IMG/VR virus record: IMGVR_UViG_3300032289_001451
Location: 1 to 24,396 of that record
DNA from: a virus
DNA: 24,396 bases
Reading direction: 5' to 3' (one strand)
In this document: one piece after another, positions 600-8,563 of the stretch
Numbering within the stretch: position 1 is the first letter of the stretch
Layout: every line of letters begins with the position of its first letter
Position numbers and translations under genes: made by a program
Notes under the pieces: generated by a model
What the model was told of the DNA's origin: nothing
The model's input: the letters and a program-made list of their open reading frames with translations, nothing else
Databases searched by the model: none

Positions 600-1457
600 A
601 TGAGAATCCATCAAATTATAGTAGAATCAGTAGAACCTTTAGAAGAAGGTCCGATACTTAATAAAATAGGATCAGGAATAGGCAAAGCTGTGGGAGCAGC
701 AGCCAAGGGCGTTGGATCAGTTGCAGGCGGAATAGTAGGAATAGGCAAAGCCATTCGAAAAGGCTACAAAGCAGGTAAAGACACTGTGGGTGGAGCAGGC
801 GACGATCCGGAAACCACAGACGATGGAACAACTGCGCAAAGTAAACCAGCTGCAAATACCGCAACTCAGGGACAGTCTACAGCACCAGCCGCCGGTACGG
901 GCGCACCAGCAACAACTGAACCAGCCGCCGCACCTGCACCTAAAGCAGCGCCTAAGTCTGCATTTGGAAAATTATCAGCAGCAGCTAATGGTGAAGAACC
1001 AGCAGCAGCAACTACAGGACAACCGGCAGCAGCACCAGCACAAAATCCTAAAGCTGCGCCAGCAACTACGGGTCAACCAGCGACTGCGGCAGCACCAACA
1101 CCAGATCCCAAAGCAGATACTGCATATTCACAAGCACAAAAAGCTGTTTCCGGGCTAGCGCCTGAACAGAAAAAAGAAATTATAACAATGTTGCAAGCTG
1201 ATCCTAAAGTTAAAGCTGCAATGTCAGTAAAGCCAGTAGCAAAACCTGCAGCGAAGCCGGCAGTACCTGTAGCAAAGCCAGCTAATACTATGGCTAATGC
1301 ACCAGTAAGTAAAACAAATAAAGCAAAGCCAGCAGCACCTGCTCCAGCAGCACCAGTTAGTAAACCCGCAACGGCAAAAACTGGAACTGTAAAACAGAAA
1401 CAGTTAACACCTGCAGGGTTTGGTCAAATGGTTAGTGGATTAACCAAGAAAGGTTAA
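600..1457 (+). CDS. Ala/Pro/Lys-rich low-complexity protein with N-terminal LEE|G site; possible internal head protein
   Basis: The product is 285 residues and unrecognised by name. The first 16 residues form a short polar/hydrophobic leader ending PLEE, followed by GPILNKIGSGIGKA. This resembles the T4 capsid-targeting leader (about 10 residues ending in (L/I)xE before the gp21 cut). Residues 17-60 are Gly/Ala-rich. About 60-170 is low complexity with two ATTGQPA repeats and many AAP units. A short helical segment (AVSGLAPEQKKEIITML) follows, then a basic KPA-rich tail. The composition suits a disordered, nucleic-acid-associated protein. The start is one base after the preceding stop. The stop codon overlaps that of the opposite-strand gene by two bases (1455-1456). 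The function is inferred, not shown. Confidence 0.75.
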   Translation: MRIHQIIVESVEPLEEGPILNKIGSGIGKAVGAAAKGVGSVAGGIVGIGKAIRKGYKAGKDTVGGAGDDPETTDDGTTAQSKPAANTATQGQSTAPAAGTGAPATTEPAAAPAPKAAPKSAFGKLSAAANGEEPAAATTGQPAAAPAQNPKAAPATTGQPATAAAPTPDPKADTAYSQAQKAVSGLAPEQKKEIITMLQADPKVKAAMSVKPVAKPAAKPAVPVAKPANTMANAPVSKTNKAKPAAPAPAAPVSKPATAKTGTVKQKQLTPAGFGQMVSGLTKKG

Positions 1458-1642
1458 AAGAACGGAAGACCGCTTTTCTTAGTGGTCTCTAAGTTATCTT
1501 TAATAATATCGCCTATTATTTTTCTCTCATCTGCCGTGAGAAACAGTGCTTCTTGATAACTCATTCCTCGCATATACCAGCAAATTTTTAAAAGATCTTT
1601 TTTTATTTCAGTAGCATCTTTTTCAATCTGCTTAACATACAA
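1454..1642 (-). CDS. Short C-terminal domain, probably expressed as -1 frameshift extension of the gp26-like gene
   Basis: As a stand-alone frame this gives 62 residues from a TTG at 1642-1640. The frame has no ATG near its beginning and only a weak GAG upstream as a ribosome site. It is open further upstream, past the gp26 stop. A slip at the T_TTT_TTC heptamer (1687-1681) would join gp26 residue F299 to RERILRLSRPEIQ and then to this domain, giving a fusion of about 374 residues. The domain is helical and charged, with ICWYMRG, LTADERKIIGDII and a GLPFF end. The arrangement resembles the lambda G/GT tail assembly chaperones next to a tape measure gene. Initiation at TTG remains possible. 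Confidence 0.65.
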   Translation of the reverse strand: MYVKQIEKDATEIKKDLLKICWYMRGMSYQEALFLTADERKIIGDIIKDNLETTKKSGLPFF

Positions 1643-1644
1643 CT

Positions 1645-1687
1645 GGATCTCAGGACGCGAGAGTCTTAAGATCCTTTCGCGAAAAAA
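1645..1687 (-). promoter_or_regulatory. Candidate programmed -1 ribosomal frameshift signal
   Basis: On the minus strand the gp26 codons GAT TTT TTC contain the canonical slippery heptamer T_TTT_TTC (1687-1681). Six bases later an 8-bp stem begins: GGATCTTA (1674-1667) pairs with TGAGATCC (1652-1645), with one G-U pair and a 14-base loop. Slippage by -1 leads into the open frame that encodes the 62-residue domain, bypassing the gp26 TAA. A second inverted repeat (CGCGA beside the heptamer with TCGCG in the loop) could compete with the stem or form a pseudoknot. All elements are read directly; frameshifting itself is inferred. Confidence 0.7.
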
Positions 1688-2577
1688 TCTGTTTGATCCA
1701 GTGTAAGTTCTATTTTAAATTTGTGTTGACATTCAGCACATGAAACTTCAGAAGTCTTTAGTGCAATATCATCTTTAAGTTTAATAACGTGATCGCTAAT
1801 ATTATTAAAGATATCAGCAGACGTATTTGCAATAAATTCTTTGATAATTGCCGGATCGTCAACAGATCCTTCGGGCGTATCAATTTGTGAAATGCATCCA
1901 GTAATTACATCAACTGTTAGTTCAGTTAATTTAATAAATGATTGACCAAATTTTTCAACTTTCTCTTCTTCGGTTAAATTCTCTGAAGTTACAATATTAA
2001 TAATTTTCTGCTGTTCTAAAGTTCGAACAGCGGTCTTAGTAACTTCTTTATAAGAGTACGGACGTAAATGAACAGTTAGCGGACCAACAGTAATTTTTGA
2101 TTCATAGTTGAATGCTGTAGCACGAGCAAGATAATGGGATAGATCAACACCATAGTCGTTAAATGCCCCACATTCAGGACAGTCAGTGGTAATGTCCATC
2201 TCTTCGCCATATGTAGCAATTCTAATAGCAATTAAAATAGCATCCATGTCAATAGAAGGCATTTGCCATGGATTAGTAATGGAAGGTACACAACTTTTAA
2301 TAACTTCAACAGTTGCAGATCCGTTCATAAGTGCATCTGGAGTTTTAAACATTAATTCGTCTTTGGCAGTCATTGCATAAACTGCGTACTCGTCAATTTC
2401 ACTTTTATCTAGTGAACCAGCAGGATAGAATTCTCCCTTGCTAGGCAACTTGATATACAATTTTGGTTGTCTAAAATAATTAGCAAGCGGGTTAGGTTTC
2501 CTTGCAGCCATTTCTACTGACTTTGCAATAGGATTGGGCATAGTTGTTAATGGTTCTGGCAACGAATTTTCAGTCAT
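1666..2577 (-). CDS. 26: gp26-like baseplate hub / tail assembly protein with four-Cys zinc site
   Basis: The product is 303 residues and resembles the T4-type gp26 baseplate hub family as found in marine T4-like phages, where it is longer than T4's own. Two CxxC pairs are visible, C133/C136 (DCPECGAF) and C280/C283 (SCAECQHKF), which could together bind one zinc. Between them lies a beta-rich part (ITVGPLTVHLRPYSYKEV) followed by a helical stretch. The ATG at 2577 has a good ribosome site (GGAGAAC) and a TATAAATA late promoter about 35 bases upstream. It is transcribed away from the tape measure gene. The 3' end carries a candidate -1 frameshift site before the TAA at 1668-1666. The family assignment comes from pattern recognition; the exact role, hub part or assembly chaperone, is less certain. 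Confidence 0.75.
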   Translation of the reverse strand: MTENSLPEPLTTMPNPIAKSVEMAARKPNPLANYFRQPKLYIKLPSKGEFYPAGSLDKSEIDEYAVYAMTAKDELMFKTPDALMNGSATVEVIKSCVPSITNPWQMPSIDMDAILIAIRIATYGEEMDITTDCPECGAFNDYGVDLSHYLARATAFNYESKITVGPLTVHLRPYSYKEVTKTAVRTLEQQKIINIVTSENLTEEEKVEKFGQSFIKLTELTVDVITGCISQIDTPEGSVDDPAIIKEFIANTSADIFNNISDHVIKLKDDIALKTSEVSCAECQHKFKIELTLDQTDFFAKGS

Positions 2578-2645: not shown

Positions 2646-5600
2646 ATGGCAGACGTAACTGGCGATCTTAACGGGCAACCAATACAATTAAACAATGCAG
2701 CGACTGAAGCAACTTTAAAACAGTTACTTCAAGCCACATTGGCTATGTTGGCCTCGCAAGGTAAATCCAAATCCACGCAACAAAAAATACAATCGGACCT
2801 TGAAAAAGAACTTAGACGTCTAGCTGCCGCATCTAAAAAAACAGCAGGTGAGCTTGACAAAGAAGCAGAAAACACAAAGACTAGGTCAAAAAAATCCAAA
2901 GAACTTGAAGATAAAAAGAACAAGTTAACACAAGAAACAATCAAAGGGCTACAAAGCACTGTTGACGATCTAGACGGACTGCATAAAGCACTTACAGGTG
3001 CAGTTTCTGCAATATCAAGTTCAACATCTGCTATCGCTGGAATGGGTAACAGTATGACAGCCGCAGCCAGTGCGATGGGTGCCATTCCAGTTGTAGGCGG
3101 TGTGTTAGCAAGTGTACTAGGAACAGTTGCGGCTGCTGCTGAAAAAAGTTACAAAGCCTTTCAGCAATCTGCAAGCGTTGGTGCAAACTTTGGTGGCAGT
3201 ATAAATGACATGATTGGTGCTGCAACAAACGCAGGAATGACTATAGACGGGTTTAGCGCACTAGTAGCAAAGAACGGTGAGGGTCTAGCACTGTTTGGTG
3301 CTGGCGTAAATGACGGTGCTAAACGATTCGCTGACTTGGCAAAAAGAATTAGAAGCAGCGAATTTAAAGATCTAAACGCTAACCTTGCTAATCTTGGATA
3401 TAGTACTGAAGATGTAAATTCCGGAATGATACGCTATCAAACCATGATGGCTAAGACCGGAAAGGGAGCGCAATTATCTAACGAAGAATTAATTGCCAGT
3501 ACCGGTCAATACTTACAAAATCTTGATGCTGTTTCAAAATTGACCGGTAAAAGCAAAGAAGCTCTTCAGAAAGAAGAAGATGCACGAACTAGAGATGCAC
3601 AGTATCAGGTTGCTAAAAGGAAACTTGATAAAACTAGTCAAGATAATTTAGAAATGTTGATGGGCACAATGACCAAGACTGAACAAGAAGCGTTCAAAGG
3701 TGCATTGGCTACAGGAACAATGAATGAAGCAATGGTGAAATTAAATGTAGTTAACCCAATGTTAGCTAGAGAGTTAATGAACACTGCTCTTCAAACTAAA
3801 CAGTCTGGAAAACTTACTCAAGAAGCTGCAATTAATTTAGATACCAGTCTAACTTCAGCTGCAAAAGCAGGAGCAGATAATGCTACAGCTCAAACAGTAG
3901 CGGCACACATGGCAGGTACGTATGGTGATACTTACAATGATGCAAACGAAAGAGCTGCTCGGACTACAACTATGTCAGAGCAACTGGCTAAGCAACAAGA
4001 AGAATTAGAAAAACAACGAATTAAAAGAGAACAAGATTTAAGAGATGGCATGGATCCTGAATCCATGAAACGATTCCAAGAGAATATAGCAGAACTTAGC
4101 AACCGATTTACAAAACTTGCTGGAGAATTTGCTCCTAAGCTAATACAGGCATTTGACTTTATCGAAAAAACTCTAGTAGGTCCGTTAGGTACAGCATTTA
4201 AACTTATAGCTGATCATCTAGGCGCACTTGTAACAACTGTAGGACTGCTTTCAGTTGCAATGGTAGCGTTTAAATTAAAATTAAAATACGAACAAGGTAA
4301 AGCAGCTATGCGCGGCACGCCTAAAGATCCTATGTTTGTTCAAGATGTTAACGGTGGAGGAGGCCCTAGCACTGAAGGTGACGACCGTCGCAAAAAACGA
4401 ACTCAAAAAGTTAAATCGGGTAGAGCACTGCAAAATGCTAGTGGTTTAATAAAAGGCGTAGGTGTAGTAGGTGCAGTAGCCGGTGTAGCAACAATGGCTA
4501 GCGATCTAAGTGATATTAGCAATGATGTTAAAGAAGGAAAGATAACAGAAGCCGAAGCTTCAGAAAAACGTGGCGGTGCAATAGGAGGAGGAGCAGGCGG
4601 CGCAGCAGGTGCGTGGGGAGGTGCCGCAGCAGGTGCAGCTATCGGATCAATAGTTCCTGTCATCGGCACAGCCGTCGGAGGACTGCTAGGCGGCGCTATT
4701 GGATATTTTGTTGGAAATAAAGCAGGTGAAGTAGTAGGTGAAAAAATTGGAAAAGCAGTAGCACCTGTAACTAAAGCAACAAAAGAACAGACAGTGGCTA
4801 CTAAGGAAGCAACAGAACAAGCAGAAACATTAACCAAAGAACAAAAGAAAGCTACAGAAGCAGCAAAAACTCCTCCTAAACAACCAGACTGGTATAAGCC
4901 TGAAAGTACATTGGCATATTATCGAGATACTATGAAAGCTCCCGGAGCTTCTGCTGTAACTCCTAGTACTCCTAGTGTTTCTAGTGGAAATACTGTCGGA
5001 GCAGCTCCACCAATTAATCAAGATGCACAAAAGAATTTAGAGTTAATTAAAAATGCATTAGTTAAACAAGGTATTACCGATCCTAAGATGATTGCTGCTA
5101 CCCTTGGCAACGTAATGAAAGAGTCGGGCGGAAAAACTCAAAGCGAAAATTTAAACTATAAGAATACAAGCAACGACCGAATACGTAGTATTTTTAAGTC
5201 AGCTACTAAAGGTAAGTCTGACGCAGAAATAGAAGAAATGAAAGCTTCTCCAGAAAAAATGGCTGAAGCTAACTACGGATCAACTACTAAATTAGGTAAA
5301 GGTATGGGTAATACTGAACCCGGTGACGGTTGGAAATTTAGAGGTCGAGGATTTATTCAATTAACAGGTAGGACTAATTATGCTAGTGCATCTAAAGCAA
5401 TTTTTGGTGATGACCGATTAGTTAAAAATCCCGATTTAGCTAATGATCCTACAGTAGCAGCTGAAATTAGTGCATGGTATATGAAACGCGGTAATGCCGT
5501 CATGGCCAAGCAAATGGGCATTGACCAAAATAATATGACCCAAGCGCAGGCAAATGCATTAGCTACTAGTACCATTGCTGGAACAGATGTAACTAAAGCC

Positions 5601-5981
5601 GGAGGATACCTCGGCGGCGAAGTAATGGGTAAAGTTAACAAATATGCAGGAAGCAGTACAATTGCTTCAATTGCAGGTGCTCCGTTTTCTCCGTCAGCGC
5701 CTGCAACTACTGTAGCTCAAACAGCAGTTACTCCAGCGGCAACAACAACAGCAACAACAACTGCCGCATTAGCAGCAACTAATAAACCTGCAGCCGGAGC
5801 GCCAGTAAAACCACAAACACAAACAGTGTCAGCAACTCCAGCAGGCCAAGAAATGCCCTCAGAGTTGCTTGCACGGTTAAATACTAATCTAGAGGTGCTG
5901 GTAGCGTTGACCAAATCAGGAAACGAAAAACAACTTCGAGCTACAAATGGTATGAGCGGCAATTTGTTTGCTGCTGTATAA
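2646..5981 (+). CDS. Tape-measure-like tail protein with embedded GH19-type lytic domain
   Basis: The product is 1111 residues. Order of parts: a charged coiled-coil N-terminus (about 38-110); an Ala/Gly/Ser hydrophobic segment (112-166); a long helical region; a hydrophobic helix (about 526-542); a glycine-zipper stretch (about 643-708, many GxxxG); a linker; a GH19 chitinase/endolysin-like domain (about 798-985); an Ala/Thr linker; and a short C-terminal helix. The GH19 part shows KESGG and ENLNY with candidate acidic residues E826 and E834, then GDGWKFRGRG and QLTGRTNY. Great length, helical content and membrane-like segments suit a tape measure. The lytic domain would open peptidoglycan during DNA entry. 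It lies beside, and divergent from, the frameshift-bearing gp26-like gene, which supports the tape-measure call. Another large virion lysin remains possible. Confidence 0.75.
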   Translation: MADVTGDLNGQPIQLNNAATEATLKQLLQATLAMLASQGKSKSTQQKIQSDLEKELRRLAAASKKTAGELDKEAENTKTRSKKSKELEDKKNKLTQETIKGLQSTVDDLDGLHKALTGAVSAISSSTSAIAGMGNSMTAAASAMGAIPVVGGVLASVLGTVAAAAEKSYKAFQQSASVGANFGGSINDMIGAATNAGMTIDGFSALVAKNGEGLALFGAGVNDGAKRFADLAKRIRSSEFKDLNANLANLGYSTEDVNSGMIRYQTMMAKTGKGAQLSNEELIASTGQYLQNLDAVSKLTGKSKEALQKEEDARTRDAQYQVAKRKLDKTSQDNLEMLMGTMTKTEQEAFKGALATGTMNEAMVKLNVVNPMLARELMNTALQTKQSGKLTQEAAINLDTSLTSAAKAGADNATAQTVAAHMAGTYGDTYNDANERAARTTTMSEQLAKQQEELEKQRIKREQDLRDGMDPESMKRFQENIAELSNRFTKLAGEFAPKLIQAFDFIEKTLVGPLGTAFKLIADHLGALVTTVGLLSVAMVAFKLKLKYEQGKAAMRGTPKDPMFVQDVNGGGGPSTEGDDRRKKRTQKVKSGRALQNASGLIKGVGVVGAVAGVATMASDLSDISNDVKEGKITEAEASEKRGGAIGGGAGGAAGAWGGAAAGAAIGSIVPVIGTAVGGLLGGAIGYFVGNKAGEVVGEKIGKAVAPVTKATKEQTVATKEATEQAETLTKEQKKATEAAKTPPKQPDWYKPESTLAYYRDTMKAPGASAVTPSTPSVSSGNTVGAAPPINQDAQKNLELIKNALVKQGITDPKMIAATLGNVMKESGGKTQSENLNYKNTSNDRIRSIFKSATKGKSDAEIEEMKASPEKMAEANYGSTTKLGKGMGNTEPGDGWKFRGRGFIQLTGRTNYASASKAIFGDDRLVKNPDLANDPTVAAEISAWYMKRGNAVMAKQMGIDQNNMTQAQANALATSTIAGTDVTKAGGYLGGEVMGKVNKYAGSSTIASIAGAPFSPSAPATTVAQTAVTPAATTTATTTAALAATNKPAAGAPVKPQTQTVSATPAGQEMPSELLARLNTNLEVLVALTKSGNEKQLRATNGMSGNLFAAV

Positions 5982-7701: not shown

Positions 7702-7947
7702 ATGCTTCTTAATGAATTTTTTCAGTTTAAAGACTCCACAAACGATTTTGCTAACGATCGTCGGTATGACAACGCCTCTGATTCGTCTGTCTTAGAAAAA
7801 AGTGACACAAGAAAACTGCGCTTGACCTTACGTCAAATCAATCAACTACGCATGCAAAGCGAAGCTCATGATTTTGAAACCCAATCGGAAATGGGTTTTA
7901 TTAAACAGATGTATGGAACTCCAGTTGAACCAACCGAATCCCAATAA
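7702..7947 (+). CDS. Small conserved-looking protein between portal and core genes
   Basis: The product is 81 residues from the ATG at 7702; longer in-frame starts run back inside gp20 and were rejected. It begins MLLNEFFQFKDS and has a basic helical core (TRKLRLTLRQINQLRMQSEA) followed by FIKQMYGTPVEP. It has no membrane segment or signal peptide and no recognised family. The position directly after gp20 is where T4 encodes small prohead core proteins, but this one is basic in the middle rather than strongly acidic, so I do not call it gp67. Its last 35 bases overlap the next gene in another frame. Confidence 0.7.
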   Translation: MLLNEFFQFKDSTNDFANDRRYDNASDSSVLEKSDTRKLRLTLRQINQLRMQSEAHDFETQSEMGFIKQMYGTPVEPTESQ

Positions 7948-8563
7948 TATCACAGCATTTGTACTAGGAAATGGAACGAGCAGATTAGAAATAAATCATC
8001 ATGCTCTAAAACCTCACGGTGTTGTATTTGCCTGTAACGCAATCTATCGAGAATTTGAACCAGATTATCTAGTAGCAGTTGATGTTAAAATGGTAAACGA
8101 AATAATTGCAGCAGGCTATCACAACAAGCATCCAGTGTGGACTAATCCTAACAAAGGCGTAACTACAAAGAAAGGCCTAAACTTTTTCAATCCGCATAGA
8201 GGATGGAGTAGCGGTCCTACAGCGTTGATGTTAGCGATTGAAAAAGGCCACAAACATATTTTTATAATGGGTTTTGATTACGAAGGTAATAACGGTAAAT
8301 TTAACAATGTATATGCTGACACCTATAACTATAAAAAAAGCACAGACACTGCAACGTATCACGGTAACTGGTTAACCCAAACAGAAAAAATTATAAAAGA
8401 CTGGAATAACGTATCTTTTCATAGAGTTATTCCAGAAAACGGATATATACCTGATAAACTAAGAATATTAAAAAATTTAAAACATATAACGGTTAAAGAT
8501 TTTCATAATATGTACCAGGGTACTATTTACAATATAGAAACCAATCAAAAAAGTACCATTTAA
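7913..8563 (+). CDS. GNGTS-motif Rossmann-like protein, possible glycosyltransferase or MptE-like enzyme
   Basis: The product is 216 residues from the ATG at 7913. An in-frame ATG at 7868 adds 15 residues unlike a folded N-terminus, and neither has a clear ribosome site. It opens with a beta-strand and loop, ITAFVLGNGTSR, then FACNAIYREFEPDYLVAVD, GWSSGPTALMLAIEKGHKHIF and IMGFDYEG. This layout (GNGxS loop, CN.iY, then SG..A..LAi..G....i.GfD) resembles GT42 sialyltransferases and the DUF115/MptE-like fold, which bind nucleotide-linked substrates. No close family can be assigned by eye. It is an enzyme-like gene set inside the head module. It could modify virion or cell glycans or be unrelated to the head. 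The function is inferred from the motif pattern only. Confidence 0.75.
   Translation: MELQLNQPNPNNITAFVLGNGTSRLEINHHALKPHGVVFACNAIYREFEPDYLVAVDVKMVNEIIAAGYHNKHPVWTNPNKGVTTKKGLNFFNPHRGWSSGPTALMLAIEKGHKHIFIMGFDYEGNNGKFNNVYADTYNYKKSTDTATYHGNWLTQTEKIIKDWNNVSFHRVIPENGYIPDKLRILKNLKHITVKDFHNMYQGTIYNIETNQKSTI

Follow-up and report, generated by a model that had tools for sequence, protein, structure and literature searches.

Whether one gene can supply two overlapping tail assembly chaperones is the question raised by the gp26-like gene of the viral DNA examined here. The window, by which we mean the whole stretch of 24,396 nucleotides that was analysed (positions 1 to 24,396 of IMG/VR virus record IMGVR_UViG_3300032289_001451), carries in this gene the heptamer T_TTT_TTC shortly before the stop codon. 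A sequence-only reading of this DNA had proposed that a -1 frameshift at the heptamer fuses the gp26-like protein to a 75-residue extension, yielding a chaperone of the G/GT type. Our answer agrees with that proposal: with a probability of about 90%, the gene encodes both gp26 and, by a -1 slip at T_TTT_TTC, a fusion of gp26 with the extension. The comparative evidence strongly supports this fusion to a C-terminal domain, which would act as a G/GT-like chaperone beside a divergent tape-measure-like gene. The heptamer, the reading frame, a downstream stem, their conservation and the domain relations were all observed directly and are described below, with the coordinates collected in Table 1.

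The final codons of the gp26-like gene were found to be GAT TTT TTC GCG AAA GGA TCT TAA, with GAT TTT TTC at 1689-1681. This places the heptamer in X_XXY_YYZ phase ahead of the 0-frame stop, which lies four codons beyond TTC; the distance of nine codons or less given in the sequence-only reading was loose. The -1 frame was free of stop codons from 5' of the heptamer as far as 1456-1454 and so is open across the gp26-like stop, with a junction of TDFF/RERILRL and an end of KKSGLPFF. When the 18 open reading frames (ORFs) of at least 150 codons in the window were compared, only the gp26-like gene had both a slippery heptamer in phase close to the stop codon and an open -1 frame; among 332 ORFs of at least 150 codons from related loci, all cases with an open -1 frame had heptamers of the gp26 site, either TTTTTTC or the overlapping AAATTTT. 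The extension itself behaves as a protein domain. Differences in the -1 frame from the 0-frame stop to the first conserved Met (codon 36) followed a coding pattern (0.31, 0.20 and 0.50 by codon position), and the mean column identity was 74% for the extension versus 64% for gp26. The well-formed helical domain foreseen by the sequence-only reading was also recovered by AlphaFold2, which modelled the extension with confidence (mean predicted local distance difference test score of 92).

Table 1. Window coordinates of the features discussed in the text.
Feature	Coordinates	Strand	Remarks
gp26-like protein, predicted short form of the tail assembly chaperone (TAC-N)	1666..2577	minus	303 aa; PF12322 T4_baseplate, phrog_150; ends ...TDFFAKGS
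Slippery heptamer T_TTT_TTC, putative -1 frameshift site	1681..1687	minus	in phase
0-frame stop TAA yielding the short form	1666..1668	minus	
-1-frame extension RERILRL...GLPFF, predicted C-domain of the long form (TAC-NC)	1457..1681	minus	75 codons; stop TAA 1456-1454
Stimulatory stem-loop, putative	1645..1674	minus	arms 1674-1667 and 1652-1645; inner GAC/GTC helix 1665-1663/1656-1654
Tape-measure-like protein with GH19/endolysin-like domain, presumed chaperone client	2646..5981	plus	1111 aa; divergent neighbour

Conservation of the heptamer was examined in three sets of IMG/VR loci: a close set of 80 IMG/VR loci, a second set of 80 loci retrieved by a profile of distant members (with some contigs common to the close set), and a cyanophage set of 80 IMG/VR loci. 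T_TTT_TTC was present in 80/80 loci of the close set, all but one of which (cut by a contig end) had a complete extension of 75-76 codons, and in all 79 testable loci of the second set, at identities down to 47%. It was likewise found in each of the 80 cyanophage-type loci, always exactly 10 nucleotides (nt) 5' of a TAG stop. The heptamer and extension were also detected in the isolated jumbo phages Atu_ph07, RaK2, 121Q, PA5oct, CBB, Vibrio 2.275.O, SCTP-2, XaC1, Munch and Phosso, as well as in Aeromonas phiAS5, ValKK3, Stenotrophomonas phage Mendera and locus L193, while XacN1, Melnitz-3, C48C1, CM1 and RL38J1 carried the variants T_TTT_TTT or T_TTT_TTG. Hundreds of T4-like phages, KVP40-like phages among them, share the slip site. 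The loci of all three sets are related to each other and do not represent independent events; therefore, codon choice is a better test of the heptamer than locus counts. At sites where pairs of sequences encode the same residue, synonymous differences were 0.00 at the three heptamer codons compared with 0.2-0.8 at most neighbouring codons. Elsewhere in the gp26-like gene, Phe was encoded by 490 TTT versus 138 TTC codons (78% TTT), such that TTT-TTC would be expected at about 17%. Occurrence of the heptamer by chance was ruled out by its conservation and codon choice. Separately, the gp26 ends of phages ECML-4, Vibrio K493 and Cygsa01, which form one clade in the tree, were found to be without the T6 heptamer (xTT_TTC). 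These phages keep a -1-frame gp51-like ORF despite the absent T6, with a TAATG overlap in two of the three; stop-start coupling or a weaker form of slip may operate in them.

An 8-bp stem starts 6 nt 3' of the heptamer in the window, as had been noticed from the sequence, and falls within the interval of about 5-9 nt at which stimulatory-type structures are placed. Stem pairing was counted directly over 42 distinct sequences of the window's clade, and the seven core pairs were found to be paired in about 95%. Pair 7-36 was GC in 23 and AU in 14 of the sequences, and pair 8-35 was GC in 34, AU in 5 and GU in 3. When the partners were slid by 1-3 bases, pairing fell from 0.75 to 0.31-0.44. The observed pairing and number of compensatory cells were reached by 0/500 shuffles; the counts of stem pairs with a compensatory change, and of pair types, were in no excess over the same 500 shuffles of the 42 sequences. 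Within the window's clade the stem covaries, although both of its arms are coding and part of the signal could reflect protein constraint. The conserved heptamer, -1 frame, stem and suppressed synonymous variation that the sequence-only reading had named as checks were all found in the window's clade, where none of the sequence-level outcomes that it had named as refuting appeared.

Profile and structure comparisons were used to identify the two parts of the fusion. The gp26-like protein, which contains two CxxC pairs, matched PF12322 at 66.2 bits (curated cut-off 24.5), and its structural model matched T4-like hub assembly proteins by Foldseek in BFVD (E 1e-23). By hhalign the jumbo gp26 set was only weakly related to T4 gp26/gp51, with the link carried by the Pfam and PHROG matches. 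T4 gp51 is a paralogue of gp26 with a C-terminal extension of about 48 residues, because its residues 1-201 match PF12322, the gp26 family (3.9e-52); its residues 147-246 match phrog_634, the gp51 family. This same family was matched by the -1 extensions of cyanophages (3.8e-31), ValKK3 (3.5e-21) and phiAS5 (1e-14). In 80/80 cyanophage loci the 'gp51 gene' was found to be the -1 extension of gp26, with complete extensions of 60-68 aa. Cyanophage gp51 had been described as only about 20% of the length of T4 gp51 and without its first approximately 200 residues (Sullivan et al. 2010, PMC3037559); frameshifting would explain this shortness, since what cyanophage gp51 lacks is gp26. In public annotation gp51 stands as its own gene, and in none of the annotated public records examined were gp26 and gp51 joined. 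The window-type extension gave no profile match to phrog_634. Its position, slip site, length and a shared xSYxExxxLSxxER-like pattern recognized by eye suggest that it is the counterpart of gp51, a relation that the sequence-only reading had missed. In the tree, T4-type gp26 and gp51 grouped together beside frameshifting relatives with a support of 90/89, just below the mark for strong support, and the root was not settled; the grouping fits a later duplication. T4 appears to make its short and long forms from the duplicated genes 26 and 51. T4 gp26 (L087:5803-6429) also displayed a weak match (E 9e-4) to the 'hub distal subunit' family of gp28 type (phrog_1140); gp28 might therefore also be related to the chaperones.

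The divergent, adjoining tape-measure-like gene predicted as the partner was found to match the tape-measure PHROGs 794 (E 2e-6) and 167 (E 1e-5), weakly in both cases, and a large divergent ORF lies beside gp26 in 52/52 testable relatives. The GH19/endolysin-like domain of the encoded protein was located at about residues 886-950. As coding capacity, a short and a long form with a common N-domain are present, as in the G/GT type, and T4 gp26/gp51 display the corresponding paralogy. The extension model weakly matched a Microbacterium phage tail assembly chaperone among viral structures (E 1.5, TM 0.60). Separately, the gp26 model matched uncharacterised proteins of about 380-690 aa from Ralstonia RSL1, RP12, Erwinia phiEaH2 and Special G (Foldseek E of about 1e-7 to 1e-3), which are candidate tail chaperones of those jumbo phages. 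A real frameshift could instead produce a component of the baseplate hub, in keeping with the annotation of T4 gp26 as baseplate hub and its placement in the hub by genetics (PMC3004832). We regard this as unlikely, as (i) gp51 is needed for assembly yet is outside the virion, and the same source also names gp26 among the hub assembly chaperones (PMC3004832); (ii) a short/long pair made by -1 frameshifting beside a tape measure is a hallmark of tail chaperones; and (iii) T4-like tail assembly chaperones (TACs) were identified by Vladimirov et al. 2022, according to papers that cite it.

Alternatively, the extension could be a small gene in its own right (gp51), with ribosomes initiating internally or through stop-start coupling once they have passed the gp26 stop; the heptamer would then be incidental. 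In addition to the public annotation of gp51 as a gene, TAATG or TGATG occurs at the gp26 stop in some lineages (121Q, ValKK3 and Mendera). However, the window and most members of its clade have no start at the stop codon. The lack of an ATG and good ribosome site had been claimed for the window, where the sole start-type codon before codon 36 is indeed a TTG (codon 13) that lacks a Shine-Dalgarno-like match, and homologues with a good ATG and ribosome site for the small frame were not found in its clade: 21/55 sequences had no ATG, GTG or TTG before codon 36, and a Shine-Dalgarno-like match at a start was detected in 1/55. Moreover, protein selection acts on the open -1 frame all the way from the slip site: its amino-acid sequence is conserved starting with codon 0, ahead of the annotated starts. 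Both the phase and the codon choice of the heptamer are fixed, which reinitiation does not need. A small gene with its own start was rejected, there being no conserved start or ribosome site, and separate translation of the extension with an incidental heptamer is very improbable overall. Fusion through transcriptional slippage is scarcely credible: nearly all members have the T6 run, but the run keeps X_XXY_YYZ phase and almost always has a C at its end, a covarying stem is positioned at stimulator distance, and six Ts are short for such slippage.

Frameshifting, slip efficiency and chaperone function are what we infer for the gp26-like gene, and some of the results weigh against this interpretation. 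The stem is variable or missing in other lineages, and is weak or absent in RaK2, Munch, phiAS5 and Phosso. The gp26 and extension models compared with the PDB gave no confident match to a solved tail chaperone fold (HK97 gp13, YqbN), with generic helical matches only, and profile comparison of the jumbo extension with the cyanophage extension and with the C-terminus of T4 gp51 yielded nothing significant. If the frameshift operates as proposed, the majority of ribosomes would terminate at 1668-1666 to release gp26, while a minority would step back one base at T_TTT_TTC, where the tRNAs on UUU and UUC would re-pair to UUU UUU, and the hairpin would aid the slip. The slipped ribosomes would then read 75 further codons to form the long form. 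By analogy to lambda G/GT, the product of the neighbouring tape-measure gene would be coated by the gp26 part. The helical extension, presumably the counterpart of gp51 ('baseplate hub assembly catalyst'), would recruit components of the tail tube or hub. Gp26 and frameshifted gp26 would correspond to the short and long chaperones, as lambda G and GT, and, produced at a constant ratio, the two would load the tape-measure protein (PMC5009743).

Taken jointly, the data make it reasonably probable that long chaperones were ancestrally made by the -1 slip throughout the gp26 lineage (cyanophages, KVP40-like, Aeromonas, Rhizobium and T4-like jumbo phages), and therefore that most of these phages have no independent gene for gp51. 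On the same reading, T4 genes 26 and 51 would represent a later duplication that replaced the slip, the heptamer would have been lost a second time in an Ackermannviridae-like clade, and the covarying hairpin would have been added as a stimulator in the jumbo/freshwater clade.

Slippage of this kind has precedents. The T4-like TAC genes were named by Vladimirov, Gautam & Davidson 2022 (doi 10.1016/j.virol.2021.11.003), known here through papers that cite it: the PRFect paper cites this work for some T4-like phages that have a short gene and a longer fusion gene in place of frameshifting, and the phage Adele paper (PMC12846349) credits it with poly-T -1 signals in T4-like TAC-N genes. As reported there, the T4-like chaperones comprise a short form and a long form with an extra C-domain, as here. 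The genes meant are presumably 26 and 51, as supported by the PF12322 matches and by Acinetobacter phage Stupor, in which gp26 and gp51 are annotated as tape measure chaperones. Thus, as far as these citing papers convey, -1 slippage in T4-like chaperone genes is of a kind already known, and the view of the sequence-only reading, which knew of no established example in the T4 gp26 lineage, is probably wrong. T4 itself differs in that the two forms come from two divergent genes, whereas the window has one gene with a -1 slip and a C-domain of 75 aa. The Vandenendeviridae/Andersonviridae TAC locus of phage Adele (PMC12846349) has a conserved GTTTTT slip site akin to that of the window and, as here, a stop-free -1 frame (>200 bp) and a downstream ORF misannotated as a gene, although the phage families differ. 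Lambda gpG/gpGT (Xu, Hendrix & Duda 2004; review PMC5009743) are likewise encoded adjacent to the tape measure. No sequence or fold relation to the lambda proteins was found, and the tape-measure gene is downstream in lambda but divergent from the gp26-like gene here. The lambda slip heptamer is G_GGA_AAG, in place of T_TTT_TTC. In cyanophages, gp51 consists of the C-domain only; the published account describes it as a gene of its own that is shortened, and does not attribute it to frameshifting (PMC3037559). No report of frameshifting for cyanophage gp26/gp51 or jumbo gp26 was found in the literature searched, and what appears new is the jumbo/freshwater clade, the covarying stem, the breadth and the mis-annotation of gp51; we consider the novelty moderate.

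Other features of the window were also observed. The neighbouring ORFs 2-598 and 600-1457, the latter a low-complexity Ala/Pro-rich protein, have in common an LxE/GP-like motif (QLNEGPFDAIKG, LEEGPILNKIG) that by eye is akin to the T4-type prohead protease site. The ORF at 7868-8563, between the portal gene and structural genes, displayed weak CST-I sialyltransferase/MptE-like matches and a strong match to phrog_30607.

For the biology of these phages, the finding would connect the T4 assembly factor gp51, whose function has long been unclear, with the tail chaperones of long-tailed phages. The extension was found in 485 public phage records, and in many of them the annotation of gp51 as an independent gene is probably mistaken. 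KVP40, RaK2 and the cyanophages may serve as a test set for how slip efficiency sets the ratio of short to long forms, with T4 and its apparently two genes as the natural comparison.
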